Part shown: positions 2,030 to 27,529 of the stretch, one piece after another
How the letters are laid out: each line of letters begins with the position of its first letter
Numbering within the stretch: the stretch's first letter is position 1
Assembly (NCBI GenBank): GCA_017987055.1
Contig: JAGNUJ010000004.1
Location: 1 to 28,733, forward strand
Source of the DNA: Giesbergeria sp.
GTDB lineage: Bacteria; Pseudomonadota; Gammaproteobacteria; Burkholderiales; Burkholderiaceae_C
Reading direction: 5' to 3'
Length of the DNA stretch: 28,733 nucleotides
Made by a program: the position numbers and the translations under genes
Notes under the pieces: model-generated
What the model saw: only the letters and a program-made list of their open reading frames with translations
The model's database searches: none
Told to the model about the DNA's origin: nothing

Positions 2030-2131
2030 GCTATTAAAAAAGAAGCTTCAACCGCACGCATTTAAAGGCTTTCAGTATTAAATCTGCCTGAAAGCTATAT
2101 AAATCAAGCGGTATAAGCTATTGTTTTTGAA
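2030..2131 (+). repeat. dispersed repeat, long form, copy A
   Basis: This stretch of about 102 bp aligns almost end to end with 3441-3543. Shared blocks include CCGCACG, ATTTAAAGG, TTTCAG, TGAAAGC, ATATAAAT, AAGCG, TATAAGCTAT and GTTTTT. The two copies point the same way and enclose the decayed CheB-CheR-EAL gene. The inner core CCGCACGYATTTAAAGG also appears in the copies at 23898 and 27458, which places it in the wider family. Confidence 0.85.
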
Positions 2132-2139
2132 TAGGCGCT

Positions 2140-3430
2140 TCAAGCACTCCAAGCGGCATCGGGTTGCCAAGAGGCGGCCCATGCGGGCAGCTGCTCGGCG
2201 GGCATGGTGTGGGCAATGACGTTGCCTTGCGCCATCTCGCAGCCCAGTTGCAGCAGGGCGACGCCGTGGGCTACGGTCTCGACGCCCTCGGCAATCACTT
2301 CGCGTTTGAAGGCGGCGGCCAGCCCGATAACGCCCTTCAAAATGGCCAAGTCGCTCGGGTCTTCCAGCATGTCGCGCACAAAGCTTTGGTCAATTTTGAG
2401 CTGGGCCACGCGCAGGCTTTTAAGGTAGATCAGCGACGAGTAGCCGGTGCCAAAGTCGTCCAAGGCAAATTGCACGCCGATGTGGCTGCAGTCTTCAATC
2501 AGCTGCGATATCTGCGCCATATCGGCCAGCGCGCTGGTCTCTAGCACTTCCAGCCACAGTCGGGCCGGCTCGATGCCCGGGTGCTGGGTCAGCAGGGTTT
2601 GGAGCCGCTCGAAAAAGTCCAGTTGCTGCAACTGGCGGGCGCTGATGTTGACTTCGTGCTGCACCGGCAGCAGCGTATCGAGCACTTATGCACTCAAACA
2701 GCAAGATGGCCAGCGAATAGGCCTCTTCGCCCGTCGAGCAGCCAGCCGACCAGACCCGCAGGCTGTGCTGGTTGGCCTTGTTGGCCGATTTGCTGGCAAA
2801 CAGCTGGGGGGTGATGTGCGCTTTGAGCGCCGCAAAGGCCTCGGCGTCGCGAAAAAAGTGGGTAACGCCAATCAGCAAGTCGCCAAACAGAGCGTCAATC
2901 TCGGACGGTGTTTTTTGCAGGTATTGGACATACGTCTCCAAGTCGCCAACTTGGTGTACTGCCATGCGCCGCTCGATGCGCCGGCAAATGGTGCTGGGCT
3001 TGTACTGAGAAAAGTCGTGCCCGGTTTGGGCGCGCAGCAGCGCAAAAATCTTGTGCAGCGCCCCTTCCGTTTGCGCCATGGCCAGCTTGTCGGCCACCGC
3101 CAGCTTGCCAAAGGCGTGCGCGACGTAGGCCAACAGCTGGGCGCGCGGCGCAGCCGGCTCCAGCAGGTGCAGCACGCCTTGGCGCAGGCTCATGTCGTAG
3201 TTGGGCGCAATGATGTAGACGCAGTTGGCCTGCACCACCATCGCGTCTTGCACCTCCAACACCTGCATGCGGGTGTAGCGGCCAATCAGCTGCGAGAGGA
3301 GGCTTTTGTGGTCGGGCGCCAAGTGCTGCACCAGCACAAAGGCCATGCCGGGGTCTTTGTCGGCGGGCAGGCCCGAAGAAATAAAGACATAGCGAGGGAT
3401 CAGCGCAGCAGAAAAAAGCTGCGTTGTCTC
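2140..3430 (-). pseudogene. decayed CheB-CheR-(PAS-GGDEF)-EAL signalling protein
   Basis: Reading from the right, the open frame shows the middle of a CheB methylesterase (DPGMAFVLVQHLAPDHKSLL). Next comes a CheR helical domain (QYKPSTICRRIERRM) and the start of the CheR SAM fold (VWSAGCSTGEEAYSLAILL). At about 2685-2700 it jumps in another frame into the second half of an EAL phosphodiesterase (VNISARQL, LDDFGTGYSSL, KIDQSFV, VIAEGVET), ending at 2140. Three defects are visible. The N-terminal CheB part with its nucleophile motif (GASAGG) is missing, and the frame starts inside a repeat copy. The rest of CheR plus the expected PAS/GGDEF and first half of EAL are deleted. The two remaining pieces are out of frame. 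The parent would have been a large multi-domain chemotaxis/c-di-GMP fusion of a kind common in these bacteria. The surviving EAL half (2140-2685) has no plausible start or first half, so I do not expect a working product. Confidence 0.85.
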
Positions 3431-3440
3431 TGCAATATGT

Positions 3441-3543
3441 GCTTTTAAAATTGATAGCTACAGCCGCACGTATTTAAAGGATTTCAGCGTAAAAACCATT
3501 TGAAAGCCATATAAATAAAGCGCTATAAGCTATGGTTTTTAAA
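3441..3543 (+). repeat. dispersed repeat, long form, copy B
   Basis: This copy aligns with 2030-2131 over its full length. It begins with a TTGATAGCTACAGC block like the short family members and ends with GCTATAAGCTATGGTTTTTA, roughly the inverse of its start. The whole unit could therefore fold back on itself. It cuts off the N-terminus of the CheB-like pseudogene and reaches to within 50 bp of dusA. Confidence 0.85.
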
Positions 3544-3591
3544 GCAGCTTTGCCGCGTCTGCGCACCGCCTCGGCGGGGATAATCGCCGCC

Positions 3592-9466: not shown

Positions 9467-10632
9467 GCACAATGGAGCGCATTTTGCGCCTGATGGCTGA
9501 AAAAAAGGCCTCAGACGTTTATTTGTCGGCGAATGCGCCTGCACTCATCAAAATCAACGGCGAGTGTGTGCCGATCAATAACCAAATCTTGCCGCCCGAT
9601 GCACCGCGCAACCTGCTGTCTGAGGTGGTACCGCCCGAACGTATCGAGGAGCTGGAAGAAACCGGCGAGCTCAACATGGGTGTGCCGATTAAAAATGTTG
9701 GGCGCTTTCGTGTCAGCGCGATGCGCCAGCGCGGCACCTATGCGGTGGTGATTCGCTTTATCTCGCAAGACATTCCCAGCTTAGACAGCCTGAACCTGCC
9801 GCCCATCTTGGGCGACCTGATTTTGGAAAAGCGCGGTTTAGTGTTAGTCGTCGGTGCCACTGGATCGGGTAAATCGACCACGCTGGCAGCGATGATCGAC
9901 CGGCGCAACGGCCTGCAAACGGGCCATGTGCTGACCATCGAAGATCCGGTGGAGTTTCAGTTCAGAAACAAGAAATCCATCATTAACCAGCGCGAAATTG
10001 GCAGCGACACGCAGTCGCTGCAAATGGCGCTGAAAAACGCTCTGCGCCAAGCGCCTGACGTAATCTTGATTGGTGAAATTCGCGATCGTGAAACCATGTC
10101 GGCTGCTATTGCCTACGCGCAGTCAGGACACCTGTGTTTGGCTACGCTGCACGCCAACAACAGCTACCAAGCGCTCAACCGCATCTTGAGCTTCTACCCG
10201 GTCGAGGTGCGCGCCACCATGCTGGGCGATTTGTCTTCGGCGCTCAAAGCCATCATCTCGCAGCGCTTAGTGCGCACGGCCAGCGGCGAGCGCGTGCCAG
10301 CGGTGGAGGTGCTGCTCAATACCAAGCTGATTTCAGAGTTGATTGAAAAAAGCGATTTTTCTGGTGTGCGCGAGGCGATGGAAAAATCGATGGCCGAAGG
10401 ATCGCAAACCTTTGAAGAAGACTTGGCGCGCTTGATCATGCAAAACCGCATTGATCGCAAGGAAGGTTTGGCCTACGCCGATTCGCCGACCAACTTGATG
10501 TGGCGGCTGCAAAACGACTTTTCGCTGGCGGCCAATGCGGCCAAGGCCAACCAAGCGGCGCAAAACGAGAAAGCCCAAGACGAAGAACCCTCGTTCACTG
10601 AAATTGTCCTCGACGTTAAGTCAGGCACCTGA
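9463..10632 (+). CDS. pilU: PilT/PilU-family type IV pilus retraction ATPase, PilU-like
   Basis: This is a 389-residue cytoplasmic hexameric ATPase that powers pilus retraction for twitching. The N-terminal domain begins [21 protein letters not shown] with [12 protein letters not shown], the PilU-like version. The Walker A motif GATGSGKST lies at 131-139. It is followed by the Asp box [10 protein letters not shown], Walker [12 protein letters not shown] and the His box [12 protein letters not shown]. The C-terminal tail (about 345-389) is Ala/Asn-rich and then acidic, as in many PilU proteins. The pilT partner that usually accompanies it is not in the window. dapE starts 7 bp after the stop, so they are probably cotranscribed. 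PilU versus a PilT paralogue is decided only on the N-terminus, so the symbol carries some uncertainty. Confidence 0.88.
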
Positions 10633-10639
10633 TTTTCTG

Positions 10640-11866
10640 ATGTCACGTACTTTGACACTGGCTGAACAGCTAATTTCCTGCCCCTCCGTTGTGCCCGATA
10701 CGCCTGATGGTGCAGCTTGCTTGCCTTTGCTGGCGGCACACTTGAAGACGCTGGGTTTTGTTTGCGACACCATAGACAGCATTCCAGCCACCTTGCGCAG
10801 CCTAGGCGATTTAGGTACTTTAAGGGCTGGTAATTTATGGGCTAAATGGACTGCAGCCCAACAACATCAAGCGCTAGCAGCTATTAAAACAATAGTGTTT
10901 TCCGGCCACACCAAGCTGCTGCCGACCGGGCCGCTGGCGCAGTGGCGCAGCCCGCCGTTCACGCCCACCCAGCGCAATGGCAAGCTGTATGGGCGCGGCG
11001 CTAGCGGTATGAAAACCTCGATTGCTGCCTTTGTTGTCGCTGTGGAAGAGTTTTTGGCCACTACACCCGAGCCGCTCCTGAACATTGCCGTACTGCTCAC
11101 GGGCGACGATGAACATGCTTTGGCTGACAGCACCAAAGTCAAGCCAATGATTGAGCAACTCAAGGCGCGCGGCGAGCGGCTGGACTATTGCATCGTTGGC
11201 GAGCCTACAGCGGTCAAGCGCACAGGCGACATGATTAAACATGGTCGGCGCGGCACACTCAGCGGCGCGCTCACTGTGCGCGGCGTGCAGGGCCACATTG
11301 CCTATCCGCAGCTGGCGCGCAACCCCATCCACGAGGCCATGCCCGCCTTAGTCGAGCTGGCCAACACGGTGTGGGACCGAGGCGATGCGTTTTTTCAGCC
11401 CACCAGCTGGCAAATAAGCAACATCCACGGCGGCACCGGCGCTGGCAATCAGATTCCGGGCGACGTCAGCATTGATTTCAACTTTCGCTTCAGCACCGCG
11501 TCCAGCGCTGAAGGGCTTAAACAGCGTGTCCATGCAGTGCTGGACCGACACAGCTTGGAATATGCCTTGCAGTGGACGCTGGGCGGCCAGCCGTTTCTGA
11601 CTTCGCCGGGCGAATTGGTCGCTGCCATGCAGCAAGCTATTGCCGCCGAGACAGGATTGACCACCGAGTTATCCACCAGCGGCGGCACCAGCGACGGGCG
11701 CTTTATCGCCACTTTGTGCCCCCAAGTCATTGAGTGCGGTCCGCCCCATGCGGACTGCCACCAAATTGATGAGCACATCGCCATTGCCGATATTGAGCCA
11801 CTGAAAAACATTTACCGCCGTACCCTTGAAAATCTCCATGCGCAAGCATTAGCGACACAGGCATGA
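10640..11866 (+). CDS. dapE: DapE-family succinyl-diaminopimelate desuccinylase with degenerate active site
   Basis: By fold and length (408 residues) this is DapE, the dizinc peptidase-like enzyme that frees LL-diaminopimelate for lysine and peptidoglycan synthesis. Later segments match well: [63 protein letters not shown]. The catalytic core does not. GHTDVVPTG reads GHTKLLPTG (Lys92 for the catalytic Asp, His90 kept). GASDMK reads GASGMK (Gly123 for the metal-bridging Asp). SDEEG reads GDDEH (Asp157 for the general-base Glu). Glu158, Glu188 and His374 remain. Just before His90 a dispersed repeat copy (about 10840-10898) is translated in frame. The start ATG 10640 is 7 bp after pilU, and the stop overlaps the prmB start. 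The enzyme is probably inactive or repurposed. A second dapE elsewhere would then be needed. Confidence 0.85.
10840..10898 (-). repeat. dispersed repeat, short form, inside dapE
   Basis: Read on the minus strand this is TTTTAATAGCTGCTAGCGCT followed by a spacer and GGGCTGCAGTCC, matching the family. In dapE it is read on the opposite strand, without breaking the frame, and gives QALAAIKT. Compare QALSAIKS at the pgeF copy. Confidence 0.8.
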
Positions 11867-12798
11867 GCACACCTCCCCACACACCCCCAACTTCTACTTT
11901 GCAAGGCGATACCGTCGGCGAACTGATCGCCTCGGGCGCGCAGTGGTTGCAAAGCGCTGGCATCGCTTTTGGCCACGGCACCACCAATGCCGATGACGAA
12001 GCCGCATGGCTGGTGCTGTGGCGCTTAGGTTTGCCGCTGGATGCGCCGCTGGGCGACGATATAGATTCAGTAGAAAATCAGGCTGTAACGCCGGCTGGGC
12101 GTGCGCTAGTAGCTACACTTTTTGAAGAGCGTATCAGCACGCGCAAGCCTGCCGCCTACCTGACGCGCGAGGCATGGCTACAGGGCGTATCGTTTTATGT
12201 CGATGAGCGCACCATCGTGCCGCGCAGCCTGATTGCGGAGCTGATTGCCAATGGCGGCTTTGACGACTGGCTAGGCGAGCACACCCAGCAGGTGCTCGAT
12301 TTATGCACTGGCAACGCCAGCTTGGCAGTGCTGTCAGCGTTGGCGTGGCCCGAAGTGCAAATCACCGGCGCTGATATTTGCCCCAATGCGCTGGCTGTGG
12401 CACAAATCAACGTTGAGCGCCACCAGCTGCAAGAGCGCATTACCCTGCAACACAGCGACGGCTTGGCCGCGCTGCCCGGGCCGTGGGACTTGATCATTTG
12501 CAATCCGCCTTATGTCAATGCCAGTAGCATGGCTGCGCTGGCACCCGAATACCGCGCCGAGCCGGTGCTGGCGCTGGCCGGCGGCAGCGACGGCATGGAT
12601 TTCATCAGCCAATTGCTGCGCGACGCGCCCGCCCGGATGAGCCAAGACGCGGTATTAGTGCTCGAAATTGGCAATGAGCGGAAGTTTTTTGAAGCCCGTT
12701 TTGCACAATTGCCCGTCTTTTGGCTGGAAACGAGCGCGGGCGAAGACCAGGTTTTGCTGGTCACCCGTGAAGCACTCAGCGGCTTTTTCTCCATTTAA
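11863..12798 (+). CDS. prmB: 50S ribosomal protein L3 N5-glutamine methyltransferase PrmB
   Basis: This 311-residue SAM-dependent enzyme methylates a glutamine of ribosomal protein uL3. The N-terminal helical domain ends in [11 protein letters not shown] and [20 protein letters not shown], which is the PrmB form of the family (PrmC/HemK differs here). The SAM motif is [14 protein letters not shown] (146 onward; the usual GNGS is GNAS), followed by a possible ribose-binding GADICPNAL. The substrate-amide motif NPPY is at 214-217. The ATG overlaps the dapE stop (ATGA), so translation is probably coupled. Residues of about 68-88 are encoded by another copy of the dispersed repeat, lying between the N-terminal helices and the conserved core where family members vary. 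Function should be intact. Confidence 0.92.
12071..12125 (-). repeat. dispersed repeat, short form, inside prmB
   Basis: On the minus strand it reads GTAGCTACTAGCGCACGCC, close to the intergenic copy at 21150. prmB reads it in the same orientation and frame as the dapE and pgeF copies (RALVATLF). The far half is more diverged. Confidence 0.65.
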
Positions 12799-12832
12799 TT
12801 TTCCGGCTTCATTTTTTGGCAGCACCCCGCTG

Positions 12833-17339: not shown

Positions 17340-17423
17340 AGTGCAATCCAGTCAGAGAGAGAGAGAAAATTTAAGCTTTATTGAAAATCAATAAGCGCTA
17401 AAACGAAGGCCAGATAGTCGGCG

Positions 17424-19124
17424 TTAAGCTTTTTGCTTGACGTAACGACCCGGAGCTGGCTCGATCACTTTGAAACTATTGCCTTTGCCATAGGTTTTAG
17501 GCGCGGGGATTAATTTGCCGCTGTGCTTTTGCAGCCAAGAAGCCCAGTCAGTCCACCAGCTACCAGCATGCTCTTGCGCACCGTCAAGCCAAGCTTCCAG
17601 CGTCGCGGGCAACGCACCGTCTTCGCGTATCCAGTGGCTGCGCTTGTTTTTTGCTGGAGGATTAATCACTCCAGCAATGTGGCCAGAAGCGCCCATGACA
17701 AAGCGCTTTTCACCTGGCAACACTTGCGTGCTGGCGTAGGCAGAGTGGATTGGCACGATGTGGTCTTCACGCGAGCCATAGATGTACGACGGTAGCGTCA
17801 CCAAATTCAAATCAATTGACTCACCGCACACAGTCAGCTTGCCGGGTTTGACGAGGTTGTTCTCAAGGTACATGTTGCGCAAGTACCAAGCGTAAAACGG
17901 CCCAGGCAGGTTGGTGCTGTCGCTATTCCAATAAAGAAGGTCGAATGGCGGCGGAGTTTCACCCTTGAGGTAATTGCCCACCACATAATTCCAAACCAAA
18001 TCGTTAGGACGTAAGAAGCTGAATGTAGAAGCAAGGTCTTTGCCCTTCATTAAGCCACCCTGGCCCATTTCCATTTCACGGTATTTCACTGATGCCTCAT
18101 CGATGAACAGGTCAAGAATGCCGGTGTCATCAAAATTGATCAGGGTGGTAAGAAAGGTAGCACTAGCAACCGGTTCGCGGTCGCGCGCGGCAAGTACCGC
18201 CAAAGCGTTGCTCAAAATGGTGCCGCCAACGCAAAAACCTAAAGCGTTGATTTGCTCTGCACCCGAGATTTGCTGCACTACGCTGATGGCCTCAATCACT
18301 CCGTCTTCGACGTAGTCATCCCACGTTTTTTTGGCCAGAGATGCATCGGCATTGCGCCAGCTAACGACAAAAGTGCGTTGGCCTTGGCTAATCGCATAAC
18401 GCACGAAGGAGTTTTCAGGCTGCAGATCGAGGATATAAAACTTGTTGATGCACGGCGGAATAAACAAAAACGGACGCTCATGCACTTTTGCCGTCAGGGG
18501 TTTGTATTCGATGAGCTGAAACAGCTCGTTTTCAAACACTACTGCACCCTCGGTGGTGGCCACGTTGTGGCCAACTTCGAACAGGCTCTCATCAGTCATC
18601 GACACATGGCCTTGCTTAATGTCTTTCAGCAAGTTCTGCATCCCTTTGGCAATGCTTTCACCCTTGGTTTCGATGGCTTTTTTCTGGGCTTCGGCGTTGA
18701 AGGCTAGAAAGTTGCTCGGAGCCATGGCGGCAACCCATTGTTCGACACCAAAGGTGATACGGGCGCGCGTTTTGGCATCAGCCTCGACTGCATCAGCCAA
18801 TCCCATCAGGGTGCGCGCGTTGAGCAAATAGGTAGCAGCAGAAAAGGCCGCCGCAGGGTTGCTAGACCAGCTTTCACCACTAAAGCGCCGATCGCCTTCG
18901 ATTTTGGGCGTACCTTGCAAGCCTTGAACCCACAGCTCGCGCGCTTCATCCATGTATTGCTGTTGTAGCGTTTTCAGTTTTTCGGGCGAAAACTTCACCT
19001 GCGGTTTTATTGTGTCGGCAGAAGCACCTATGCCCTGGAATGATTCCAACGCACGCGACCAACTATCGCCGAAAATTTGCTGGAATTGCTGGGCACTTTC
19101 AACCCAGCCAGAATCAGAATTCAT
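17424..19124 (-). CDS. phaC: class I poly(3-hydroxyalkanoate) synthase
   Basis: This 566-residue polymerase joins (R)-3-hydroxyacyl-CoA into PHA at the granule surface. The alpha/beta hydrolase core has the lipase-like box GFCVGG with nucleophile Cys298. The acid is Asp454 in GSREDHIVP and the base His482 in GASGHIAGVINPP. Other family segments are PPCINKFYILDL, FVVSWRNADASL and LLYWNSDSTNLPGP. The length and the absence of a PhaE/PhaR partner gene fit class I. The ribosome binding site is excellent (AGGAGG 5 bp before the ATG). It opens the phaC-phaA-phaB cluster. No phasin or phaR gene is adjacent in the window. Confidence 0.96.
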   Translation of the reverse strand: MNSDSGWVESAQQFQQIFGDSWSRALESFQGIGASADTIKPQVKFSPEKLKTLQQQYMDEARELWVQGLQGTPKIEGDRRFSGESWSSNPAAAFSAATYLLNARTLMGLADAVEADAKTRARITFGVEQWVAAMAPSNFLAFNAEAQKKAIETKGESIAKGMQNLLKDIKQGHVSMTDESLFEVGHNVATTEGAVVFENELFQLIEYKPLTAKVHERPFLFIPPCINKFYILDLQPENSFVRYAISQGQRTFVVSWRNADASLAKKTWDDYVEDGVIEAISVVQQISGAEQINALGFCVGGTILSNALAVLAARDREPVASATFLTTLINFDDTGILDLFIDEASVKYREMEMGQGGLMKGKDLASTFSFLRPNDLVWNYVVGNYLKGETPPPFDLLYWNSDSTNLPGPFYAWYLRNMYLENNLVKPGKLTVCGESIDLNLVTLPSYIYGSREDHIVPIHSAYASTQVLPGEKRFVMGASGHIAGVINPPAKNKRSHWIREDGALPATLEAWLDGAQEHAGSWWTDWASWLQKHSGKLIPAPKTYGKGNSFKVIEPAPGRYVKQKA

Positions 19125-19245
19125 GCTGCCTCCTGAGATAACGGAAAATCAAGCCCGGTGCTGATTTTTTGCCCCGGGCATTACTAGTCACAGGAGATGG
19201 TAACGCTTTCACGCCCTTTCGATTCCCTTATCTGGATATTCTTCA

Positions 19246-19533
19246 ATGTATTTGGTCGTTATCGCTTGGCTTTATGTCGTTCTCATGGCCGCTTTGGTTG
19301 AGGCCACGAGCAATGTCGGCACCGTGCTGGGTGCGGTGGTTACTTTTGTTTTGTACGGGCTACTGCCGCTGTCGATTGTGATGTATATCCTTGGCACGCC
19401 GGGGCGTAAACGCGCTTTGTATGCACAAGCTATGGCCGAGCGCGCAGTAAATTCAGCTGCGCCAGATGCAGACAGCAAAGCGCCCACTAGCGCCCAAAAT
19501 AGCGCTGTCGCGGCGGTGCGAGAAGAAGTGTGA
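19246..19533 (+). CDS. conserved small membrane protein of unknown function
   Basis: The 95-residue protein has two predicted membrane helices (about 4-20 and 27-50), with VEATSNVGTVLGAVVTFVLYG between and within them. A soluble Ala/Ser-rich tail follows GTPGRKRALYA. I recall similar two-helix proteins in related Comamonadaceae but know no function. It is divergent from phaC (121 bp between starts). Its last 81 bases overlap the 3' end of pgeF on the other strand. The conserved part lies before the overlap, so the tail may be a recent extension. Confidence 0.65.
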   Translation: MYLVVIAWLYVVLMAALVEATSNVGTVLGAVVTFVLYGLLPLSIVMYILGTPGRKRALYAQAMAERAVNSAAPDADSKAPTSAQNSAVAAVREEV

Positions 19534-20346
19534 AGGATTGCCCACGGTACACCAAGCAGCGCTGCTGTCGTTGCCGTATATATGCGTGACGCCTAAAGCG
19601 CGCAAGCGTTGGCGGGCTAATGCTGCTAAATCGGCGAAGTATTTACCAGCACTGCTGGGAACAAAATGCGCCGCTGCTGCACCGTCGTGCGCACAAAAGG
19701 CGGCGCGCACCTCTGCGCCGACTTCAAACGCCTGCGGACCAATGCAAGGGCCTAGCCATACCAGAGTGTCCGCAGCGACTAAGGTCTCCTCTGCTGCATT
19801 TTTTACTCCTGATTTAATAGCTGATAACGCTTGATTTGACTGGGCTAGAGCCATAAATCGTTCAAAAACCTTCTCTAAAACCCCTGTTCCTACCCCTTTG
19901 CTGCTGCCAGCCAGTCCGCGCCAGCCGGCATGGGCGGCGGCTACGGCGCTGCCTTGGCGATTGGTCAGCAAGACAGGAAGACAGTCGGCCACCATGATGG
20001 TGCAGGCCAGATGCGCAGCGCTGGTGGCAGCGGCGTCGGCGCAAGGGGCTGTCGCCCCAACTGGCACCTTACTGTGGTCTTTAGCGCGCAAATCCACCAC
20101 CTCGCTACCATGCACCTGCTGCAAAAACACCGGTTGTGTTCCCGGCGTGATAGCGTGGAGCGCCGCTTGCAATATCTGCCGATTGGCATGGACTGCCGCT
20201 GGTAAGTCACCAACGTGATCGCCGATATTCAAGCTATCAAACGGCGCAGCGCTCACGCCGCCAGCGCGGGTCGTACACAGCGCGTGGATATGGGCGGGTG
20301 CTGGCCAATCAGGGCGCAACCCATTGGGAGTGATGTCGAGATGCAT
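19453..20346 (-). CDS. pgeF: PgeF (YfiH/DUF152) purine nucleoside phosphorylase-like, peptidoglycan editing factor
   Basis: This 297-residue protein belongs to the YfiH/LACC1 family. E. coli PgeF is linked to removing L-Ser misincorporated in peptidoglycan precursors, and family members also show purine nucleoside phosphorylase activity. The metal-site residues are in place: His79 in QQVHGSEVV, Cys122 in VADCLPVLL and His139 in AAHAGWRGL. LGPCIGPQAFEVG and NPSHFFSHRRDS complete the pattern. I chose ATG 20346 because the family start (PDWPAPAHIHALCTTR) follows. The open frame extends upstream without support. Residues of about 165-181 (LAQSNQALSAIKSGVK) derive from a dispersed repeat copy inserted before LGPCIGP. 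The gene is divergent from the FAA-hydrolase gene (84 bp apart). Confidence 0.9.
   Translation of the reverse strand: MHLDITPNGLRPDWPAPAHIHALCTTRAGGVSAAPFDSLNIGDHVGDLPAAVHANRQILQAALHAITPGTQPVFLQQVHGSEVVDLRAKDHSKVPVGATAPCADAAATSAAHLACTIMVADCLPVLLTNRQGSAVAAAHAGWRGLAGSSKGVGTGVLEKVFERFMALAQSNQALSAIKSGVKNAAEETLVAADTLVWLGPCIGPQAFEVGAEVRAAFCAHDGAAAAHFVPSSAGKYFADLAALARQRLRALGVTHIYGNDSSAAWCTVGNPSHFFSHRRDSAILGASGRFAVCIWRS
19803..19852 (+). repeat. dispersed repeat, short form, inside pgeF
   Basis: The plus strand reads TTTAATAGCTGATAACGCTTG, a spacer, then GGGCTAGAGCC, matching the dapE copy closely after orientation is adjusted. pgeF reads the opposite strand as QALSAIKS, nearly the same peptide as in dapE. 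Confidence 0.8.
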
Positions 20347-20430
20347 TGCCGCAGTGTACGGCGCGGCATAGACAGCGTGGCACACTGGCAACTTACAAAA
20401 AATCGCTAAAAGCCCAATAGAAAGAGCTGT

Positions 20431-21126
20431 ATGAGCTACGTATTTTCTCCTCCTACACCCGCCAGCGTTTCGGTCATTGGATTGGTACAGCGTTTTCCAG
20501 TCCACCGCATTTACTGCGTCGGTCGCAACTATGCCGAGCACGCCAAAGAGATGGGCTTTACTGGCCGTGAACCACCGTTTTTCTTTATGAAGCCGGCCGA
20601 TGCCGTGTTGGCTGTCAACGACGGTGAAATGGGCACCCTGCCCTACCCCAGCCTGAGCACTAATTTGCACCACGAAATTGAGCTGGTGGTTGCTATCGGC
20701 AAAGGCGGCAAAAACATTGCTGCCGCCGACGCTTTGCAGCATGTGTACGGCTACGCCATTGGCCTAGATATGACACGGCGCGATTTGCAAAACGAGATGA
20801 AAAAGCAAGGTCGCCCGTGGTGCATTGCCAAAGGCTTTGATGACAGCGCCCCTATTGGCACCATCACGCCGGCTGCGCAAGCTGGTGATGTGGCGCAAGC
20901 GGCCATTTGGCTCAAGGTCAATGGCCATGAGCGCCAACGCAGCAACGTCTCGCAACTGATTTGGAGCATTGCAGAAACCATAGAACACTTGTCTAAGGCA
21001 TGGCTGCTGCAACCGGGCGACTTGATTTACACCGGCACGCCCGAAGGTGTCGGCGCGGTAGTTTCAGGCGATGTATTGGAAGCAGGCATCGACGGTTTAG
21101 GCACACTGTGTTTGCGTGTGGCATAA
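20431..21126 (+). CDS. fumarylacetoacetate hydrolase family protein (fumarylpyruvate hydrolase-like)
   Basis: The 231-residue enzyme is the short, single-domain type of the FAH family, which cleaves C-C bonds in beta-diketo acids. RIYCVGRNYAEHAKEMG and PPFFFMKPADAV are typical starts. The divalent-metal ligands are Glu82 and Glu84 (HHEIELVVAIG) and Asp113 (GLDMTRRDLQ). GDLIYTGTPEGVGAV near the end completes the site. The N-terminus and length resemble fumarylpyruvate hydrolases of the gentisate pathway, but no gentisate genes are nearby. Related proteins also include oxaloacetate tautomerases and acylpyruvases, so the substrate stays open. It is divergent from pgeF. Confidence 0.88.
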   Translation: MSYVFSPPTPASVSVIGLVQRFPVHRIYCVGRNYAEHAKEMGFTGREPPFFFMKPADAVLAVNDGEMGTLPYPSLSTNLHHEIELVVAIGKGGKNIAAADALQHVYGYAIGLDMTRRDLQNEMKKQGRPWCIAKGFDDSAPIGTITPAAQAGDVAQAAIWLKVNGHERQRSNVSQLIWSIAETIEHLSKAWLLQPGDLIYTGTPEGVGAVVSGDVLEAGIDGLGTLCLRVA

Positions 21127-21149
21127 AAGCGTCGATTTGTTTAACTTCG

Positions 21150-21200
21150 TTTTTGATAGCTACTAGCGCACGCCTTACAAGCGCTAGAGGCCGATTTGAT
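21150..21200 (+). repeat. dispersed repeat, short form, intergenic
   Basis: TTTTTGATAGCTACTAGCGC, a short spacer and AAGCGCTAGAGGCC form one of the best copies of the family. Two CGCTAG/CTAGCG blocks face each other, so it can fold as a hairpin. It fills most of the gap between the FAA-hydrolase gene and the Nudix gene. Confidence 0.85.
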
Positions 21201-21219
21201 ACAAATAAAATACCCGCTT

Positions 21220-21771
21220 ATGACCTTTCGCAGCCAAATTCAATATTGCCGCCAGTGCGGCAGCGCCGTAGAGCACCGCGTGCCTGACGATGGCGACACC
21301 CGCCCGCGTGCTGTTTGTCCTGCTTGCCAAACCATTCATTACGAAAACCCCTTGAACGTCGTCGGCACTATTCCAGTGTTGGCCGATGGCCGTGTGTTGC
21401 TGTGTAAACGCAATATTGAGCCTCAACTGGGCAAATGGACATTGCCTGCCGGATTTATGGAATTGGGTGAAACCACCTCACAAGGCGCTGCACGCGAAAC
21501 AGATGAAGAAGCAGGAGCGCAGTTTGAAATCGGCGCATTGTTTAGCTTGATGAACGTTCCTCGGGTGGGTCAAGTGCATATGTACTATCGGGCTACGCTA
21601 CTTAGCGACCAATTCAATCCCGGCGTTGAGACGATGGAAGCCCGTCTTTTCAGTGAAGCCGAAGTGCCTTGGGACGAGCTAGCATTTCGCACTGTGAAAG
21701 AAACGTTAGAGCATTTTTTTGCTGATCGTCAGCGGGGACAATTCGGAGTGCATTTGGTGGATTTGGAATAG
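21220..21771 (+). CDS. zinc-ribbon Nudix hydrolase
   Basis: This 183-residue pyrophosphohydrolase has a zinc ribbon at the N-terminus (Cys10, Cys13, Cys33, Cys36 in YCRQCG and CPACQ). A perfect Nudix box follows at 78-100 (G, five residues, E84, then REtdEEaG). This layout is shared by NADH pyrophosphatase-like and ADP-ribose pyrophosphatase-like proteins, and the true substrate is unknown. I chose ATG 21220 because an earlier in-frame start at 21196 is not followed by family-like residues and borders the repeat copy. The gene ends before a very AT-rich stretch (21772-21846) and a strong terminator shared with prpE. Confidence 0.9.
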   Translation: MTFRSQIQYCRQCGSAVEHRVPDDGDTRPRAVCPACQTIHYENPLNVVGTIPVLADGRVLLCKRNIEPQLGKWTLPAGFMELGETTSQGAARETDEEAGAQFEIGALFSLMNVPRVGQVHMYYRATLLSDQFNPGVETMEARLFSEAEVPWDELAFRTVKETLEHFFADRQRGQFGVHLVDLE

Positions 21772-21846
21772 CCAATATTTTTAACTTTTGCTTTGATATT
21801 TATTTTTATTAAATTTAATTTTGTAAGTTACATTCAAAGTCTATAA

Positions 21847-21886
21847 AAAAGCAGCTGCACTGGGCTAAGCCAGTGCAGCTGCTTTT
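21847..21886. terminator. long bidirectional terminator between the Nudix gene and prpE
   Basis: A perfect 17-bp stem (AAAAGCAGCTGCACTGG and its inverse) with a 6-base loop has an A-run on one side and a T-run on the other. It can end both convergent transcripts. Confidence 0.9.
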
Positions 21887-21917
21887 ACGTTGGTGCCGAC
21901 TATTTACCCAACGCCGA

Positions 21918-23813
21918 TCAATTGCCGACGATGTCGCGCACTTGTTGCAGTGCAGCGGGGTCTTCCATCGTCGTCAAATCACCCGTATCGCGGCGCTCAG
22001 CCACGGCCTGCAAGGCGCGGCGCAGCAGCTTGCCGCTGCGGGTTTTGGGCAGCGCGTTGACAAAATAGACGCGCGATGGGCGCGCTACAGCGCCCAATTG
22101 GCTATCGACTTGCTTCATCACCTCAGCTTCCAAGCGATCGCGCTCGGCAGGGTCGTTTAGCAGCGCGGCATTACGGGCGACAGCAAATGCCATCGCCACT
22201 TGGCCTTTGAGCGTATCGGCTACGCCGACTACGGCCACTTCAGCGACGTTCGGGTGCGAAGAAATGCTCTCCTCAATCTCACGCGTACCCAAGCGGTGGC
22301 CGGCAACATTGATCACGTCATCGGTGCGACCCAAGATGAAGTAGTAACCGTCCGCATCGCGGATGCCCCAGTCAAAGGTGCTGTAAATCTGGCGACCCGG
22401 CACGCTGCTCCAGTAGGTGCTGACAAAGCGCTCATCGTCACGCCACACGGTTTGCAGGCAACCGGGCGGCAAGGGGCCTTCGACAGCGATGACGCCTTTT
22501 TGGTTTGGCGTGGTCAGCTCTTGGCCAGTTACTTCGTCAATCAGTTTGAGGTTGTAGCCATACATGGCTTTGCCGGGGCTGCCAAAGCGGGTGGTTTGCT
22601 GCTCGACACCGTTGGCCAGCGTCATGATGGGCCAGCCGGTTTCGGTCTGCCAGTAGTTGTCGATGATAGGCACCTCCAGCGCTTCGCTGATCCAGCGCGC
22701 GGTTGGCTCGTCCAGCGGCTCGCCAGCGAGCCACAGCGCTTTGAGGCTGGAGATGTCGTACTTTTTCAGCCACGATGGATCGTGCTTTTTCAGCACGCGC
22801 ACTGCCGTCGGTGCCGAGAACATGTGCGTGACTTTGTACTTTTCTACGATGCTCCACCACACGCCGGCGTCGGGACGCACTGGCAGACCCTCGTACATGA
22901 TGGTGGTCATGCCACCAATCAGCGGGCCATAAATGATGTAGCTGTGGCCCACCACCCAGCCGATGTCGCTGGTGGTGAAGAAGGTGTCGCCGGGCTTGGC
23001 ACCAAAAATGTGCTTCAGGCTCGCCGCCAGCGCCACGGTGTAGCCGCCGGTATCACGCTGCACGCCCTTGGGCTTGCCGGTGGTGCCGCTGGTGTAGAGG
23101 GTGTAGCTGGGCTCGGTAGCTTCGACCCACTCGCAGGGTACGACGGCGTTCAGGTGCTGCTCGCGCAACGCGCTCCAGACGTGGTCACGCCCTTCGACCA
23201 AATTGAGCGGGGCCAGACCTCGGTCAATCAGCAGCACGGCAGTAGGCTTGTGCTTGGACAAGCGAATCGCCTCGTCCAGCAGCGGCTTATAAGGCACCGG
23301 CTTGCCACCACGAGAACCCGCATCGGCGCTGACGATGACCACCGGCTCAGCGTCTTCAATGCGCGAGGCCAGCGAGCCCGAGGCAAAACCGCCAAACACC
23401 ACCGAATGCAGCGCGCCAATGCGCGCGCAGGCCAGCATGGCAAAAGAAGCCTCGGCAATCATCGGCATATAGATCAGTACGCGATCGCCCTTTTTGACGC
23501 CCAGCGACAGCAAGGATGCCGCCATGCGCTGCACTTCCAAATGCAGCTCGGCAAAGCTGTAAGTGCGCTCAGTGTTGGTTTCGGTCGAGATGGCGACCAG
23601 CGCGGCTTGATCTGGGCGGTCTTTCAAGTGGCGGTCGATGGCGTTGTGGCACAAATTGGTGGTGCCACCGACAAACCAGCGCGCAAACGGCGGGTTGTTG
23701 TAGTCGCAAATTTGCTCGGGCTGCGTCTGCCAATCGATCAACTTGGCCTGCTCAGCCCAAAAGGTGTCGCGGTCGTCGATGGACTGGCGGTAAAAATCTG
23801 CGTAGCTTGTCAT
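21918..23813 (-). CDS. prpE: propionate--CoA ligase (propionyl-CoA synthetase)
   Basis: This 631-residue AMP-forming acyl-CoA synthetase activates propionate (and less well acetate) to the CoA thioester. The start SYADFYRQSIDDRDTFWAEQ and IDWQTQPEQICDYNNPPFARW are the PrpE form, not Acs. The P-loop YTSGTTGKPKGV, the DNYWQTETGWPI motif and GRTDDVINVAGHRL follow. The catalytic lysine is Lys595 in PKTRSGKLLRR, the site usually controlled by acetylation. I chose ATG 23813, which has AAGGAA about 8 bp upstream. The longer frame to 23855 lacks support. The product would feed the methylmalonyl-CoA mutase at the left edge and could supply C5 monomers to the PHA genes. A repeat copy lies 85 bp upstream. 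Confidence 0.93.
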   Translation of the reverse strand: MTSYADFYRQSIDDRDTFWAEQAKLIDWQTQPEQICDYNNPPFARWFVGGTTNLCHNAIDRHLKDRPDQAALVAISTETNTERTYSFAELHLEVQRMAASLLSLGVKKGDRVLIYMPMIAEASFAMLACARIGALHSVVFGGFASGSLASRIEDAEPVVIVSADAGSRGGKPVPYKPLLDEAIRLSKHKPTAVLLIDRGLAPLNLVEGRDHVWSALREQHLNAVVPCEWVEATEPSYTLYTSGTTGKPKGVQRDTGGYTVALAASLKHIFGAKPGDTFFTTSDIGWVVGHSYIIYGPLIGGMTTIMYEGLPVRPDAGVWWSIVEKYKVTHMFSAPTAVRVLKKHDPSWLKKYDISSLKALWLAGEPLDEPTARWISEALEVPIIDNYWQTETGWPIMTLANGVEQQTTRFGSPGKAMYGYNLKLIDEVTGQELTTPNQKGVIAVEGPLPPGCLQTVWRDDERFVSTYWSSVPGRQIYSTFDWGIRDADGYYFILGRTDDVINVAGHRLGTREIEESISSHPNVAEVAVVGVADTLKGQVAMAFAVARNAALLNDPAERDRLEAEVMKQVDSQLGAVARPSRVYFVNALPKTRSGKLLRRALQAVAERRDTGDLTTMEDPAALQQVRDIVGN

Positions 23814-23897
23814 CCTGTTTTTCCTTGAGCAAATTTTGAATTCATAATTATTCAAACCTGCGCTTGCTAGAAACTGACTTAACGCACACGTTAGATT

Positions 23898-23980
23898 GCT
23901 TTTATATTGATAGCTGCTAGCGCCCGTATTTAAAGGGCTAGCGGGCTATTTTTCTTATTTTTTATAGCCCATAGCCCGCA
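23898..23980 (+). repeat. dispersed repeat, copy upstream of prpE
   Basis: TATTGATAGCTGCTAGCGCC leads into CGTATTTAAAGGGCTAGCGG, combining the short-form core with the CGTATTTAAAGG block of the long copies. It then adds a 9-bp inverted pair (GCGGGCTAT/ATAGCCCGC, 23941-23979) around an AT-rich loop. It ties the long and short forms together as one family. Confidence 0.85.
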
Positions 23981-23997
23981 CTGCGCCCAAAGTCGGT

Positions 23998-24597
23998 TTA
24001 TTTGACCAAGGCCAACATCTCTTTGAACGCTGGATTTTCGCAACTGCGCAGCCATTCAAAGGCGACCATTTCGGTGGTCACCAGCTCGGCGCCAGCGCCG
24101 GCCAAGCGGTCAAACGCAGCGTCGCGATTGCGCTCAGTGCGCGAGCTGCAGGCATCGGTCACCACCCAGACATCAAACTCGTCTTCAATCAAATCCAGCG
24201 CGGTTTGCATCAGGCAGACATGCGCCTCGCAGCCAGCAATGACGATCATGCTGCGCTGCATCTCGGGCGCAGATTTTTGCAGGTGCTTGGGCAGGCTGCG
24301 GGCGTTGCCGCCTTGCGGTTTAGCCGGTGGGCGCAGCCACTCGCCCAAACCTTCTTCGGTGGCGCTGAAGTGCATTTTGGACAGCGTGCGGTCGCACAGT
24401 GCGCGCAGCGCCTCGTCGTTAGGCCCTAAGCGGGAAGGATTTTGCTCGGTGCCAATCACCGGAACTTGCATCAGTTTGGCCAATTGGGCTAAACGCATGG
24501 CGTTGGCCAAGGCACTAGCGCCCTCAAAAATGACCGGCATCAAGCGGGTCTGGTAATCGACCAGCACGAGTTGGGAGTCAGAAGCATCAAGCAACAT
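23998..24597 (-). CDS. isochorismatase-family cysteine hydrolase
   Basis: The 199-residue protein has the isochorismatase-like catalytic triad: Asp14 in LVLVDYQTRL, Lys74 in SKMHFSA, and Cys128 in GCEAHVCLMQTA, with the expected cis-peptide region just before. The family includes nicotinamidases and other amidases, and nothing here fixes the substrate. I recall related proteins annotated as generic hydrolases. I chose ATG 24597, which has GGA 8 bp upstream; a TTG at 24609 would add four residues. The right end of the IS200/IS605 relic begins only about 20 bp upstream of the start, so the native promoter may have been displaced and expression affected. Confidence 0.87.
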   Translation of the reverse strand: MLLDASDSQLVLVDYQTRLMPVIFEGASALANAMRLAQLAKLMQVPVIGTEQNPSRLGPNDEALRALCDRTLSKMHFSATEEGLGEWLRPPAKPQGGNARSLPKHLQKSAPEMQRSMIVIAGCEAHVCLMQTALDLIEDEFDVWVVTDACSSRTERNRDAAFDRLAGAGAELVTTEMVAFEWLRSCENPAFKEMLALVK

Positions 24598-24626
24598 AGT
24601 GTCGTCCAAATTGAGATTGACATCCT

Positions 24627-24646
24627 CCCCGCCCTAAAGGACGGGG
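24627..24646 (-). other. IS200/IS605 right-end hairpin, possible omega-RNA scaffold relic
   Basis: CCCCGCCC and GGACGGGG flank TAAA. On the minus-strand RNA the single mismatch becomes a G-U pair, so the helix would hold. The sequence GGGGAGGATGTCAA beyond it is a common right-end motif of this IS group. In TnpB systems the guide RNA overlaps the 3' end of tnpB and this right end. The tnpB stop codon lies in the loop. Confidence 0.5.
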
Positions 24647-25095
24647 ATTCCTACTGCCAGACGGCGATGTCGCGCCGCGAGAATGTTTTTGGCGGCGTTT
24701 ACGCCTCTGTCGTGGACAGTAGCGCAAGTGCTACAAACCCATTCTCTTATTCGCAAACCCGCTCTACCTTTCGGACTGCTGGCGGGAATCGTCCCGCAGC
24801 ACGAACAAGTCTGGGTTGAATAACTTGCATTGACTACCTCAAAGACGATACCGGCCTGATGGCTCTTGTATTCCAACATCGTCTTGAACATCGACCCGCC
24901 TGCGTCTAGCGTGCTTTTGGCCATTTTGGTTTTGACCAGCTTGCTACTGGCCACATCACCGTCAAAAGGGCGCGCCGCTTTGGCCGAGGTGGCGTTGATA
25001 TGGTTCCAGACCTGATTGACTTCGCGTGCCACCTGACACAGCACTTTGGCGTGCTTGTCTTTGAGGCGCAGTTTGAGGGTTTTGATGCAATCCAT
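24634..25095 (-). pseudogene. tnpB/OrfB relic 1, internal deletion
   Basis: The 153-codon frame joins a TnpB N-terminus (MDCIKTLKLRLKDKHAKVL, REVNQVWNH) directly to the C-terminal third (SKLVKTKMAKSTLDAG). It then has the zinc finger CSCCG ... CSTC and the last RuvC motif HDRGVNAAKNIL. Full members have about 350-400 residues. The first RuvC aspartate motif is missing, and a segment that is normally FEEVNE reads FEVVNA. It therefore cannot be an active RNA-guided nuclease. The finger and RNA-binding end survive. Confidence 0.8.
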
Positions 25096-25149
25096 AGCGG
25101 GATTATGGGTTCAAATAAGGGCGAGATACAAGCCCTGCGGGCTAAGGTC

Positions 25150-25328
25150 AACAGCCCGCTACTGGCCACGTTGCCCACGAAGATGGCGGCGTTTTCTTGC
25201 AACAGCTTGCTGCTGAACTGGTGCAGCGCGTCTTTGCGCTGGTTTTTGCGCTGGTTTTTGATTTGGGCGTGAATGGCTTTGGCGCGCTTGTCTTTGAGGC
25301 GTAGTTTCAGGGTTTTGGTGCAATCCAT
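25150..25328 (-). pseudogene. tnpB/OrfB relic 2, N-terminal and middle fragment
   Basis: MDCTKTLKLRLKDKRAK is followed at once by IKNQRKNQRKDALHQFSSKL and AAIFVGNVASS, which is the middle piece missing from relic 1. The sequence then loses similarity. Relics 1 and 2 are therefore complementary pieces of the same ancestral gene, separated by a duplicated start. Confidence 0.7.
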
Positions 25329-25478
25329 AGCGGGTTTATAGGGCAAAGCAAGGGGGTCAACGATCGCGCTGCGCCATCTGCGCTAGATCAGTGTTTGGGG
25401 GGTTTCTCCATGCATTGAGCTGCGTTTGGATCTATTTCGCCCGAATGGATGGCGGCGGGCGTGTTACCCTCGCGCCCC

Positions 25479-26204
25479 ATGTCTAAATGGTTTTGCACTC
25501 TCGCCCTCCTGCTGGCAAGCACCGCCCACGCAGTACACGCCACCCCCACCACTTCAAGCCCAGAGACCAACGACGTCGTTGACCACTGGATGATGAATCC
25601 TCCTGAGGTGATTGACCGTTGGCTAGCCCCCCAAAAAACCAAGCCTGTCGTCGCTAGCGCACAAATAGACAGTGTGGCCGACCGCTGGATGATGAATCCG
25701 CACGAAGTCATCGACCGCTGGATGAACCAAGGCAGCGCTAAAGCCACCGATAAAGCGTCCAGCATGATGAGCCAGCTCGATGCCGCGCGCAATGACGTTG
25801 CAGACAAAACCGCTGACCTCGTCACCACCGCGATGGGCTTGCTGGGCGTGCCTTATCGCCGTGGCGGCAACAGCGCTGAAACTGGCTTTGACTGCAGTGG
25901 CTTTGTCCGCAGCATTTACAGCCAAACCGTCGGTATGGTGCTGCCGCGCCGCGCCGTCGAGCAAGCAGCGGCCACGCAAACCATTGACAAAAAAGAGCTC
26001 AAACCGGGTGACTTGGTATTTTTCAACACCATGCGCCGCACCTTTAGCCATGTCGGCATCTACATTGGCGATGGCAAATTTGTGCATTCACCGCGCACCG
26101 GCAAAACGGTGCGGGTCGAAAGCATGCAAGATTCTTACTGGAAAAAGCGCTTTAACGGCGCTCGCCGTGTCGTCGATTACTCCCTGACCGCGCAAGTCCA
26201 ATAA
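25479..26204 (+). CDS. secreted NlpC/P60 (C40) cell-wall peptidase with N-terminal repeat
   Basis: This 241-residue protein starts with a signal peptide (MSKWFCTLALLLASTAHA), so it is exported to the periplasm, where it would cut D-Glu-diaminopimelate stem-peptide bonds. The C-terminal papain-like domain (about 105-235) has Cys139 in GFDCSGFVRSIY, His191 in FSHVGIYIGDG and His203 in KFVHSPRTG. Between signal and enzyme lies an unusual pair of 17-residue repeats at 33-49 and 66-82, each WMMNP-EVIDRW, spaced 33 residues apart. I do not know this motif; it could bind the wall or a partner. I chose ATG 25479 because the signal peptide begins there. The glsB-type gene follows after 3 bp. Confidence 0.9.
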   Translation: MSKWFCTLALLLASTAHAVHATPTTSSPETNDVVDHWMMNPPEVIDRWLAPQKTKPVVASAQIDSVADRWMMNPHEVIDRWMNQGSAKATDKASSMMSQLDAARNDVADKTADLVTTAMGLLGVPYRRGGNSAETGFDCSGFVRSIYSQTVGMVLPRRAVEQAAATQTIDKKELKPGDLVFFNTMRRTFSHVGIYIGDGKFVHSPRTGKTVRVESMQDSYWKKRFNGARRVVDYSLTAQVQ

Positions 26205-26207
26205 GCC

Positions 26208-26456
26208 ATGCTCTCCCTCATCGGAACCATTTTTGTCGGCCTGATTGTGGGTCTGATTGCCCGCGCCATCAAACCCGGCGATGACAAACTGGGCTGGACC
26301 ATGACTGCCCTGCTGGGCATTGGCGGCTCTTTTCTTGCCAGCTACGCCGGCAGCGCGATGGGCTGGTACCCACCCGGCGCGCCCGCTGGCTGGATTGCCT
26401 CCATCATCGGCGCCGTGGTTTTGCTGGTGATTTACGGCTTGGTCAAAAAGAAATAA
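26208..26456 (+). CDS. GlsB/YeaQ/YmgE-family stress-response membrane protein
   Basis: This 82-residue protein of the transglycosylase-associated family (Pfam Transgly_assoc) has three short membrane helices rich in Gly and Ala. Characteristic segments are GTIFVGLIVGLIARAIKPG and ALLGIGGSFLASYAG. The family is induced by osmotic or general stress in many bacteria, and its molecular role is not known. It starts 3 bp after the NlpC/P60 stop and surely shares its transcript. It converges on the RlmI-like gene with a 3-bp gap, leaving no room for a terminator between the two. Confidence 0.9.
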   Translation: MLSLIGTIFVGLIVGLIARAIKPGDDKLGWTMTALLGIGGSFLASYAGSAMGWYPPGAPAGWIASIIGAVVLLVIYGLVKKK

Positions 26457-26459
26457 GCC

Positions 26460-27416
26460 TCACAGGGGCGGCGCCCGGTACACCAGCACCTTGAGCGCAC
26501 GCTCAGGCGCCATATCGGCAAAAACGGCCGGATTGGCCAGCCGCTCGACAAAGACCAACTCTGGCGCCAAGTCGCGCATTTGGTCTTGCAGAAAATCCAT
26601 GCCCAGCTCTGGCGCATTCAGGCACAGCAGCGCGTGGCCGTCAGGCGCGAGCAAATCGGGTAAACGGCGCATCAGGCGGGCGTAGTCTTTGGTGGCAATA
26701 AAACTGCCTTTTTGAAAACTGGGCGGGTCAACAATCACCAAGCCATAGGGGCCGCTGCGGGTGATTTTTCCCCACGTACTAAAGATGTCGTGCGCCAAAA
26801 AACTCGCCCCAGTGGTAATGCCGTTGAGTTGGTGGTTGTACTGGCCGGTGGCAATGGCACTGCGCGACATATCGACGTTGACCACTTGGCGCGCACCGGC
26901 CTGCAGCGCCACCACCGAAAACGCGCAGGTGTAGGCAAACAAATTCAGCACCTTGGTGGCGTGATAAGCAGTGCCAGCCGCCACCTGCGCGGCAATGTAG
27001 TCATGCACCCAGCGCCGCCCCTGCGCCATGTCCAAAAACAGGCCGTGGTTTTGCCCCTTATCAACCTGCACGCGAAACTGCGCGCCCCGCTCAGTGACGG
27101 TGTGCGGCTCGGGCACGCTGCCGGCCATCAAACGCGTATCGGTGCCGCGCCCGTGGCGGTACTGAAACACCCAGTTCAGCGGCGCGCCCTCGGGCGCAAT
27201 CTGCTGCCAGCGCTGCGCTAGCGCAGCGCCCACTGTCGCCAAATCGGCGTCACTGACTGGGGCAAAGCTGGTCAGCACCCACACTGGCGGATAGGCGTCC
27301 AGCGCCCACTGCTCGCAGCCGGGAAATAAACCACCGCGCCCATGGAACACGCGCTGCGCCTCGGTGGGCAGCGACAGGGCGGCAATGGCATCGAGCAAGG
27401 CTTGCATGGTGGGCAT
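26460..27416 (-). CDS. RlmI-like class I SAM-dependent methyltransferase
   Basis: The 318-residue protein matches the C-terminal catalytic part of RlmI/RlmK-type 23S rRNA methyltransferases. It has DKGQNHGLFLDMAQGRRWV, the SAM motif VLNLFAYTCAFSVVALQAGA (about 157-175), NVDMSRSAIATG and the active-site DPPSFQKGSF (230-239). The N-terminal PUA domain of RlmI is replaced by about 110 unrelated residues. Methylation of rRNA is a fair guess, but the target is unproven. The start is uncertain: ATG 27416 is my choice, ATG 27407 and TTG 27452 are options, and none has a clear ribosome binding site. A dispersed repeat copy lies just upstream (27458-27529). Confidence 0.82.
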   Translation of the reverse strand: MPTMQALLDAIAALSLPTEAQRVFHGRGGLFPGCEQWALDAYPPVWVLTSFAPVSDADLATVGAALAQRWQQIAPEGAPLNWVFQYRHGRGTDTRLMAGSVPEPHTVTERGAQFRVQVDKGQNHGLFLDMAQGRRWVHDYIAAQVAAGTAYHATKVLNLFAYTCAFSVVALQAGARQVVNVDMSRSAIATGQYNHQLNGITTGASFLAHDIFSTWGKITRSGPYGLVIVDPPSFQKGSFIATKDYARLMRRLPDLLAPDGHALLCLNAPELGMDFLQDQMRDLAPELVFVERLANPAVFADMAPERALKVLVYRAPPL

Positions 27417-27457
27417 AGTTAACAACGGCTTCAAACAATTAAATGGGCACAAGAATG

Positions 27458-27529
27458 CGGCTATTTTCAGGCCATTTAGGCCTCTAGCCCTTTAAATACG
27501 TGCGTTATTAGCTATTATTTTGATAACCC
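27458..27529 (-). repeat. dispersed repeat, copy upstream of the chemoreceptor gene
   Basis: On the minus strand it reads AAATAATAGCTAATAACGCACG, then TATTTAAAGGGCTAGAGGCC, close to the prpE-upstream copy. It lies between the divergent RlmI-like and chemoreceptor genes, so it may affect their promoters. Confidence 0.8.

Follow-up and report, generated by a model that had tools for sequence, protein, structure and literature searches.

A REP-like repeat of Comamonadaceae that may be maintained in place, between genes and within them

A stretch of 28,733 nt from Giesbergeria sp. (contig JAGNUJ010000004.1, hereafter the window) carries nine copies of a near-palindromic repeat, four of which lie inside protein-coding genes. 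The repeat belongs to a family that is real, wide and scarcely described, and the behaviour of its copies fits a sequence that is kept and reshaped in place. We tentatively regard it as similar to repetitive extragenic palindromic (REP) sequences and as maintained in Comamonadaceae (here the GTDB family of the window) by recognition or drive, a reading to which we give somewhat less than an even chance and whose mechanism we infer.

The repeat and its distribution

The genome that contains the window (the source genome) is a draft of 1.68 Mb, 61% complete, and its closest named relative is Simplicispira psychrophila in a tree of ABC-F, PrmB and DapE (74 rows). Copies were detected with an iterated profile (nhmmer), using reversed sequence as a control, in a sample composed of the window and 60 contigs of the source genome (at most 20 kb each; 638,660 nt in total). 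In this sample the profile finds 140 copies, of which 130 have an E value below 1e-5, and it finds none in the reversed sequence; the density is about 220 per Mb, which extrapolates to about 800 copies for a genome of 3.7 Mb. Allowing one mismatch, the 13-mer TAGCTRCTAGCGC matches 308 times in the source genome and its reversed pattern three times, so that the excess over chance proposed in the first-pass annotation holds well beyond the window. A model search of the source genome scored 150 of 780 candidates. Within the window, and with up to two mismatches, there are nine matches (shuffle mean 2.2, maximum 7), eight inside reported copies and one elsewhere (14118), the copy at 2031 being missed.

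The conserved unit is about 61 nt long with A/T-rich flanks, and its consensus is CTATTAAATTAATAGCTGCTAGCGCACGTATTTAAAGGGCTAGAGGCCGATTTGACTCTAAA (about 39% GC, 24 of 62 positions counted by eye from the printed consensus). Its core of about 36 nt is composed of ATAGCTNNNAGCGC, 11 nt and GSGCTAGAGGCC, and is A/T-rich on either side. The motif contains 58.0 bits of information in the source genome and 51.5 bits in a relative, G006. Neither a GTAG nor a CGTC tag is present at the ends of the consensus, and Rfam contains nothing that matches it at the gathering threshold.

All nine window copies are recovered by the iterated profile. Two are long forms: the one at 2031-2130 consists of a forward half (2031-2075; E 3.3e-4, + strand) and a facing half (2072-2130; E 1.6e-3, - strand), its 98 nt fold with a z of -4.0 and it forms a repeat with 3456-3543; the other, at 3445-3543 (+ strand; E 5.7e-7; 81% to the copy at 2044), has a forward half at 3445-3490 and a facing 13-mer match with two mismatches at 3520-3532. 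Three copies are intergenic: one at 21146-21205 (+ strand; E 4.5e-14), between a FAH-family gene and a NUDIX gene at a site shared by relatives, and two with a lineage-specific loop at 23899-23951 (+ strand; E 4.5e-14) and 27468-27524 (- strand; E 3.4e-12). The remaining four lie inside genes and are described below.

Copies avoid genes: only 30 of the 140 are inside them, though 89% of the sample is coding, while 26 overlap the 3' end of a gene and 5 the 5' end. Copies outside genes lie at a median of 10 nt from a 3' end, and 97 of 124 distances are 30 nt or less. Convergent spacers hold 35 copies, codirectional spacers 54 and divergent spacers 9, with 10 at contig edges; density is 13-fold higher in convergent than in divergent spacers. 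The repeat follows roughly one gene in five, and its orientation relative to that gene is even (66 same, 58 opposite). A like placement, with high copy number, 3' ends and convergent spacers, is part of the account of REPs in PMC3733652. Genes in the sample were called by a hexamer script, which did not call pgeF, truncated dapE at its start and may err at gene ends. The dapE and pgeF copies were put in by hand beside 28 called intragenic copies, and two copies (L055 and L088) that lie in open frames but precede the called start were left out of the intragenic count.

Searched with up to three mismatches, the core pattern reaches totals of at least 20, our cut-off, in 46 of the 200 genomes surveyed from the family, with up to 628 matches and a highest reversed control of 18. 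Among 195 genomes from other families of the order, totals are 8 or fewer with controls up to 30, and none is above background; both surveys sum the two strands, and a near-palindromic copy can score twice. Copy number switches within genera, for example 280 and 9 in g145, 59 and 0 in g31, and 319 and 1 in g88. Apparent variants of the motif occur in G059 and G070, genomes of two genera, and may be additional lineage forms; in G059, for example, the arms read AGCCGGC/GCCGGCT.

The earlier impression that the family was undescribed is nearly right. A search of open-licence papers gave no description of the repeat besides two unnamed motif pairs in PMC5217627: ATAGCT(N)22CAAAAG in Polaromonas naphthalenivorans (125 copies, 18 inside genes) and GCTTAT(N)5AAGCG in Acidovorax ebreus (114 copies, 5 inside genes), both mostly intergenic, near gene ends and in many cases convergent. 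By letters and spacing these pairs fit the present repeat, an identification that is our own; where that paper introduces them, they are presented without an element, a family, or an evolutionary or coding analysis.

Copies inside genes

The four intragenic copies of the window all sit in open frames, as first noted. The copy in dapE (10640-11866, + strand; NCBIfam dapE_proteo, alignment to 4ppz) is at 10834-10895 (- strand; E 2.5e-8), and orthologues exist both with and without it; that in prmB (11863-12798, + strand; NCBIfam L3_gln_methyl) is at 12067-12127 (- strand; E 1.1e-7) and brings no length change relative to most orthologues. In the ABC-F gene (12887-14947, + strand; NCBIfam ABC-F matches) the copy at 14589-14649 (+ strand; E 1.3e-11) falls, by alignment, in a variable Ala-rich linker, and in pgeF (19453-20352, - strand; NCBIfam TIGR00726) the copy at 19806-19866 (+ strand; E 1.2e-8) falls in a variable linker that is longer than in 1rw0.

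The dapE, prmB and pgeF copies do have a common orientation and frame, which the first-pass annotation took to be unexpected under random insertion. Across 29 of the 30 intragenic copies (one with an incomplete core was omitted) no orientation bias exists: 17 run against the gene and 12 with it. A frame bias does hold across the genome, since 13 of the 29 use the dapE/prmB/pgeF frame, one of six, but it is modest. Measured against the open-frame rates found in 77 intergenic copies, P is 0.00013; an even split over the three commonly open frames gives 0.019, or 0.14 when only the 11 copies of at least 40 bits are considered. The bias is in part set by the stop codons that occur in the repeat.

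It might be argued that codon usage produces the in-gene copies by chance, or does so for the weaker ones. Several hits reach only 20-32 bits, including the three copies without length gain discussed below, and the commonest frame gives ordinary Ala/Leu-rich helix residues. However, 613 coding sequences give 33 hits, compared with 0-4 per shuffle in 40 synonymous shuffles (with a threshold of 25 bits, 26 compared with 0-3), the reversed controls give none, and prmB, dapE, pgeF, ABC-F and tldD have a hit in 0 of 40 shuffles each. This account is disfavoured in general, and we consider it very improbable.

The copies had also been taken for in-frame insertions of peptides, and an insertion of 61 nt would predict a gain of about 20 residues. 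This part of the proposal stands for dapE, aroE and pgeF, where residues are gained, and it fails as a general mode, because three genes (prmB, tldD and one resembling RNase II) have no added residues relative to orthologues without repeat DNA. The clearest case is prmB, whose copy, judged by sequence comparison, is not an insertion: 73 of 75 orthologues cover the site, of which 64 match its count of 21 residues exactly, 5 fall short of it by 1-3 and 4 exceed it by 3-11, and HemK of Thermotoga (1sg9) aligns across the copy ungapped. The DNA of the prmB site is repeat-like in the Acidovorax-Simplicispira group. The RNase II-like gene has a net change of zero, with conserved residues and equal length in L176 and L177, both lacking the repeat; tldD also has a net change of zero, as six relatives are equal in length and only L175 has a hit at the site. 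Relative to PDB homologues, which are distant, selO (59.1 bits) shows a net change of -2 residues, miaA +4, hydroxyisobutyryl-CoA hydrolase about +1 and asparaginase about +3. The copies in ABC-F and DnaX lie within variable linkers where a gain cannot be judged.

The DapE protein of the window has HTK in place of HTD and SGMK in place of ADMK, changes at conserved Asp positions, and a 9-residue duplication near the repeat, and may therefore be inactive, as far as sequence can tell. Nothing else in the draft genome scores above the cut-off of the family; S. psychrophila keeps HTD.

Turnover, pairing and the search for a mobiliser

Sites were compared with those of G006 (835,228 nt of that genome), where 23 of the 140 copies of the source genome could be placed by both flanks. 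At 20 of these 23 sites G006 has a copy too (12 outside genes, 8 inside), and chance placement at the same site is about 4% per site. Outside genes, where loops are mostly specific to the lineage, the loop of a copy differs from its G006 orthologue at 7.08 of 14 positions, compared with 7.53 for a random G006 copy and 4.64 for a random copy of the source genome. Inside genes the loops match the orthologue, with 4.38 differences against 7.84 for random copies.

Linkage between alignment columns was tested for pairs with mutual information above 0.12; 45 pairs in the source genome and 35 in G006 have z above 6, none of them more than 8 nt apart. At columns 34-35 and 50-51 of the source-genome alignment, AA and TT doublets alternate with almost no AT or TA intermediates. 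None of 6,320 pairs of copies is 95% alike, and the 34 copies with near-identical loops have a flank identity of only 0.56 and 0.53, compared with 0.47 in older copies. A recent burst of whole elements is rejected on these grounds, the flanks being hardly co-copied.

The hairpin was examined from several sides. The first-pass annotation expected most copies to fold, but the hairpin is weak and only two of the nine window copies fold better than z = -2. Among the copies of the source genome, G006 and other relatives, pairing stays at the shuffled level or close to it; position 17-43, normally a mismatch, shows a small excess (22 versus 17.5 in the source genome, 39 versus 33.4 in G006). One stem position has a G.G mismatch in 118 of 138 source-genome copies. 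Little or no covariation, that is, stem maintenance by compensatory change, was seen in these three sets. A function based on pairing was thus set aside, though single loci had looked covarying by eye. A search for terminator-like stems, whose loop limit of 8 nt disfavours the repeat, listed none within the seven copies of window 10001-28733. Taken together, the short reach of column linkage, the dissimilar flanks and pairing at or close to the shuffled level speak against both recent transposition of whole elements and selection for a fold.

Loss of the motif can be followed at orthologous sites. Two Giesbergeria records (L094 and L137) score 0-3.5 bits at five scorable sites in dapE, prmB and pgeF, where many relatives score 12-34; in the tree they branch among carriers, together with S. 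metamorpha and L093 (SH-aLRT 98). Three others (L106, L108 and L133) have kept the dapE copy and not the prmB copy. Among the remaining Limnohabitans, Variovorax and similar records, 0 of 36 dapE sites and 0 of 37 prmB sites reach 12 bits (reversed control at most 4.1). Miniature inverted-repeat transposable elements (MITEs) have terminal inverted repeats and target-site duplications; for the present repeat no clean pair of filled and empty sites was found, and in L094, L102 and L129 the FAH-NUDIX spacer has collapsed to 14-17 nt. ComEC was considered as a cause of loss and proved uninformative, since it is present with and without the motif. In the same tree L111, labelled Akkermansia muciniphila, groups with Limnohabitans, and L143, labelled Pantoea sp., with Acidovorax sp. 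CCYZU-2555; the labels of both records therefore look wrong.

The source genome, as far as it is complete, yielded no Y1 transposase. In the same genus, 19 loci have a gene resembling REP-associated tyrosine transposases (RAYT). The repeat stands at its 3' end in four of them (L197, L198, L199 and L205), and in L197 facing copies lie on both sides of it. Since copies follow about one gene in five, such placement is no strong link. At 14 of the 19 loci no repeat hit adjoins the gene, in most of the 19 the gene is accompanied by a AATTGGGGTCAGACCCCAATT-type palindrome, and it is also found in G002 and G005, genomes without an exact copy of the core; mobilisation of the repeat by this gene is not supported, although the four 3'-end placements and the L197 arrangement leave it some probability. 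The RAYT-like gene and the AATTGGGGTCAGACCCCAATT-type palindromes (L197-L215, in most genomes of the genus) look like a separate REP-RAYT pair.

Interpretation

Several known systems resemble the repeat in part. REPs and bacterial interspersed mosaic elements, as characterized in PMC3733652, resemble it in their high copy number, in their position at 3' ends and in convergent spacers, and in having facing dimers and some in-frame copies; the present repeat differs in having no GTAG/CGTC tag, no consistent RAYT link and little or no stem covariation, and in three in-gene copies that bring no length gain. The Rickettsia palindromic elements (RPE), for which we rely on the treatment in the same paper, share in-frame copies inside conserved genes. 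They are described there as inserts, whereas the three copies tested here overlie residues of repeat-free orthologues; the parallel drawn in the first-pass annotation thus extends to being in frame but not to how the copies of prmB, the RNase II-like gene and tldD arrived. The BRE family, also of beta-proteobacteria including Polaromonas and with some copies inside genes, is about 90 bp long in the part of PMC3110155 that describes it, with 69% GC in Bordetella and at most 29 copies counted, and so differs in length, composition and number from the repeat.

DNA uptake signals have a core with A/T flanks, occur in dialects and spread without insertion; they generally number at least 1,000 per genome, compared with roughly 800 by extrapolation for this repeat. 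The repeat also has a core with A/T flanks and a lineage-specific form, but its motif is longer and its density is about 220 per Mb. Placement at gene ends, as in the signals of Pasteurellaceae and Neisseria (PMC1852404), is a further shared feature. Intragenic copies without insertion are another. We read the behaviour of the repeat as closer to that of uptake signals than to that of RPE.

We rank maintenance in place above a mobile palindrome and a structural 3'-end element, while holding it as a tentative choice. Recognition of the sequence by some factor would keep and remake copies where they stand; a candidate is a DNA-binding or DNA-uptake component whose preference would shift between lineages, and an alternative candidate is conversion between copies over very short tracts. 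DNA that already resembles the repeat would give rise to new sites, and copies in genes would persist at tolerated codons, often rich in Ala, Leu, Gln or Ile. A more specific version, which we think rather unlikely, is that of a recognition signal, about 36 nt long with A/T flanks and common to the family, which would spread and be renewed without inserting, by replacing resident DNA of similar sequence and even codons, would shift its form between lineages and would be lost genome-wide together with the system that recognises it; this would be an uptake-signal-like drive in a group where we know of none. Several results count against maintenance by recognition. We know of no binding factor. 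ComEC is found in all 15 good genomes of the genus, those with zero copies included, and since it occurs regardless of the motif it neither supports nor explains uptake. The information content given above exceeds the usual need of a recognition site and thus suggests copying, and the density of about 220 per Mb also weighs on this side. The copies without gain are weak matches (prmB 30.9, RNase II-like 29.2 and tldD 28.1 bits), and 4 of the 40 synonymous shuffles produce a hit in the RNase II-like gene. At three other sites residues are gained: 8 in dapE relative to Neisseria DapE, 10 in aroE relative to two genomes of the genus that may carry decayed copies, and about 30 in pgeF relative to 1rw0. 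The concerted signal comes from 20 pairs, and of the 12 pairs outside genes 4 share the loop type. Finally, L093 is also weak (9.5 and 14.6 bits), so that loss may be gradual, and L125, L139, L142, L146, L149-L151 and L104/L132/L143 are below 6 bits at the sites scored.

Some of these points are what would be expected of a classical REP or RPE-type miniature element, moved by a transposase in trans, inserting between genes and sometimes in frame, with old copies decaying. High copy number, 3'-end and convergent placement and facing long forms match REPs as PMC3733652 describes them, and the gains in pgeF, aroE and dapE, the strong differences within genera such as g88 and g145, the high information content, and the RAYT-like loci with the repeat at the 3' end (4 of 19), above all the L197 arrangement, which is as expected of a RAYT and its REP, point the same way. 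Such an element is a possibility that we hold to be serious yet doubtful, because RAYT-like genes occur in genomes without the exact core and mostly beside AATTGGGGTCAGACCCCAATT palindromes, 14 of 19 without adjoining repeat; no Y1 transposase was found in the incomplete source genome; the GTAG and CGTC tags are missing; and near-identical copies, long-range linkage and, in three genes, any length gain are absent. A hairpin at transcript 3' ends, either a terminator or a stem protecting mRNA, under selection on RNA structure, would account for the location after stop codons, the near symmetry and the lack of an orientation preference (66 and 58). We nevertheless find it improbable in view of the shuffle-level pairing in three copy sets, the frequent G.G mismatch, the weak T tracts, the 30 copies inside genes and the seven scanned copies without a listed terminator-like stem, a scan whose loop limit disfavours them.

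Two other features of the window were read by eye. Between 24634 and 25354, overlapping short open reading frames and a 78-nt direct repeat resemble, in translation, decayed TnpB-like (IS605 OrfB) remnants, and the gene at 25449-26204 has repeated DHWMMNPPEVIDRW-like units in its N-terminal part, followed by an apparent NlpC/P60-type domain.

If codons have truly been overwritten at constant length, a peptide derived from a repeat is not necessarily an insertion, and intragenic palindromic repeats in other organisms would merit re-examination. Moreover, the presence and absence of the motif in neighbouring species would make the search for a recognising factor a direct comparative test.

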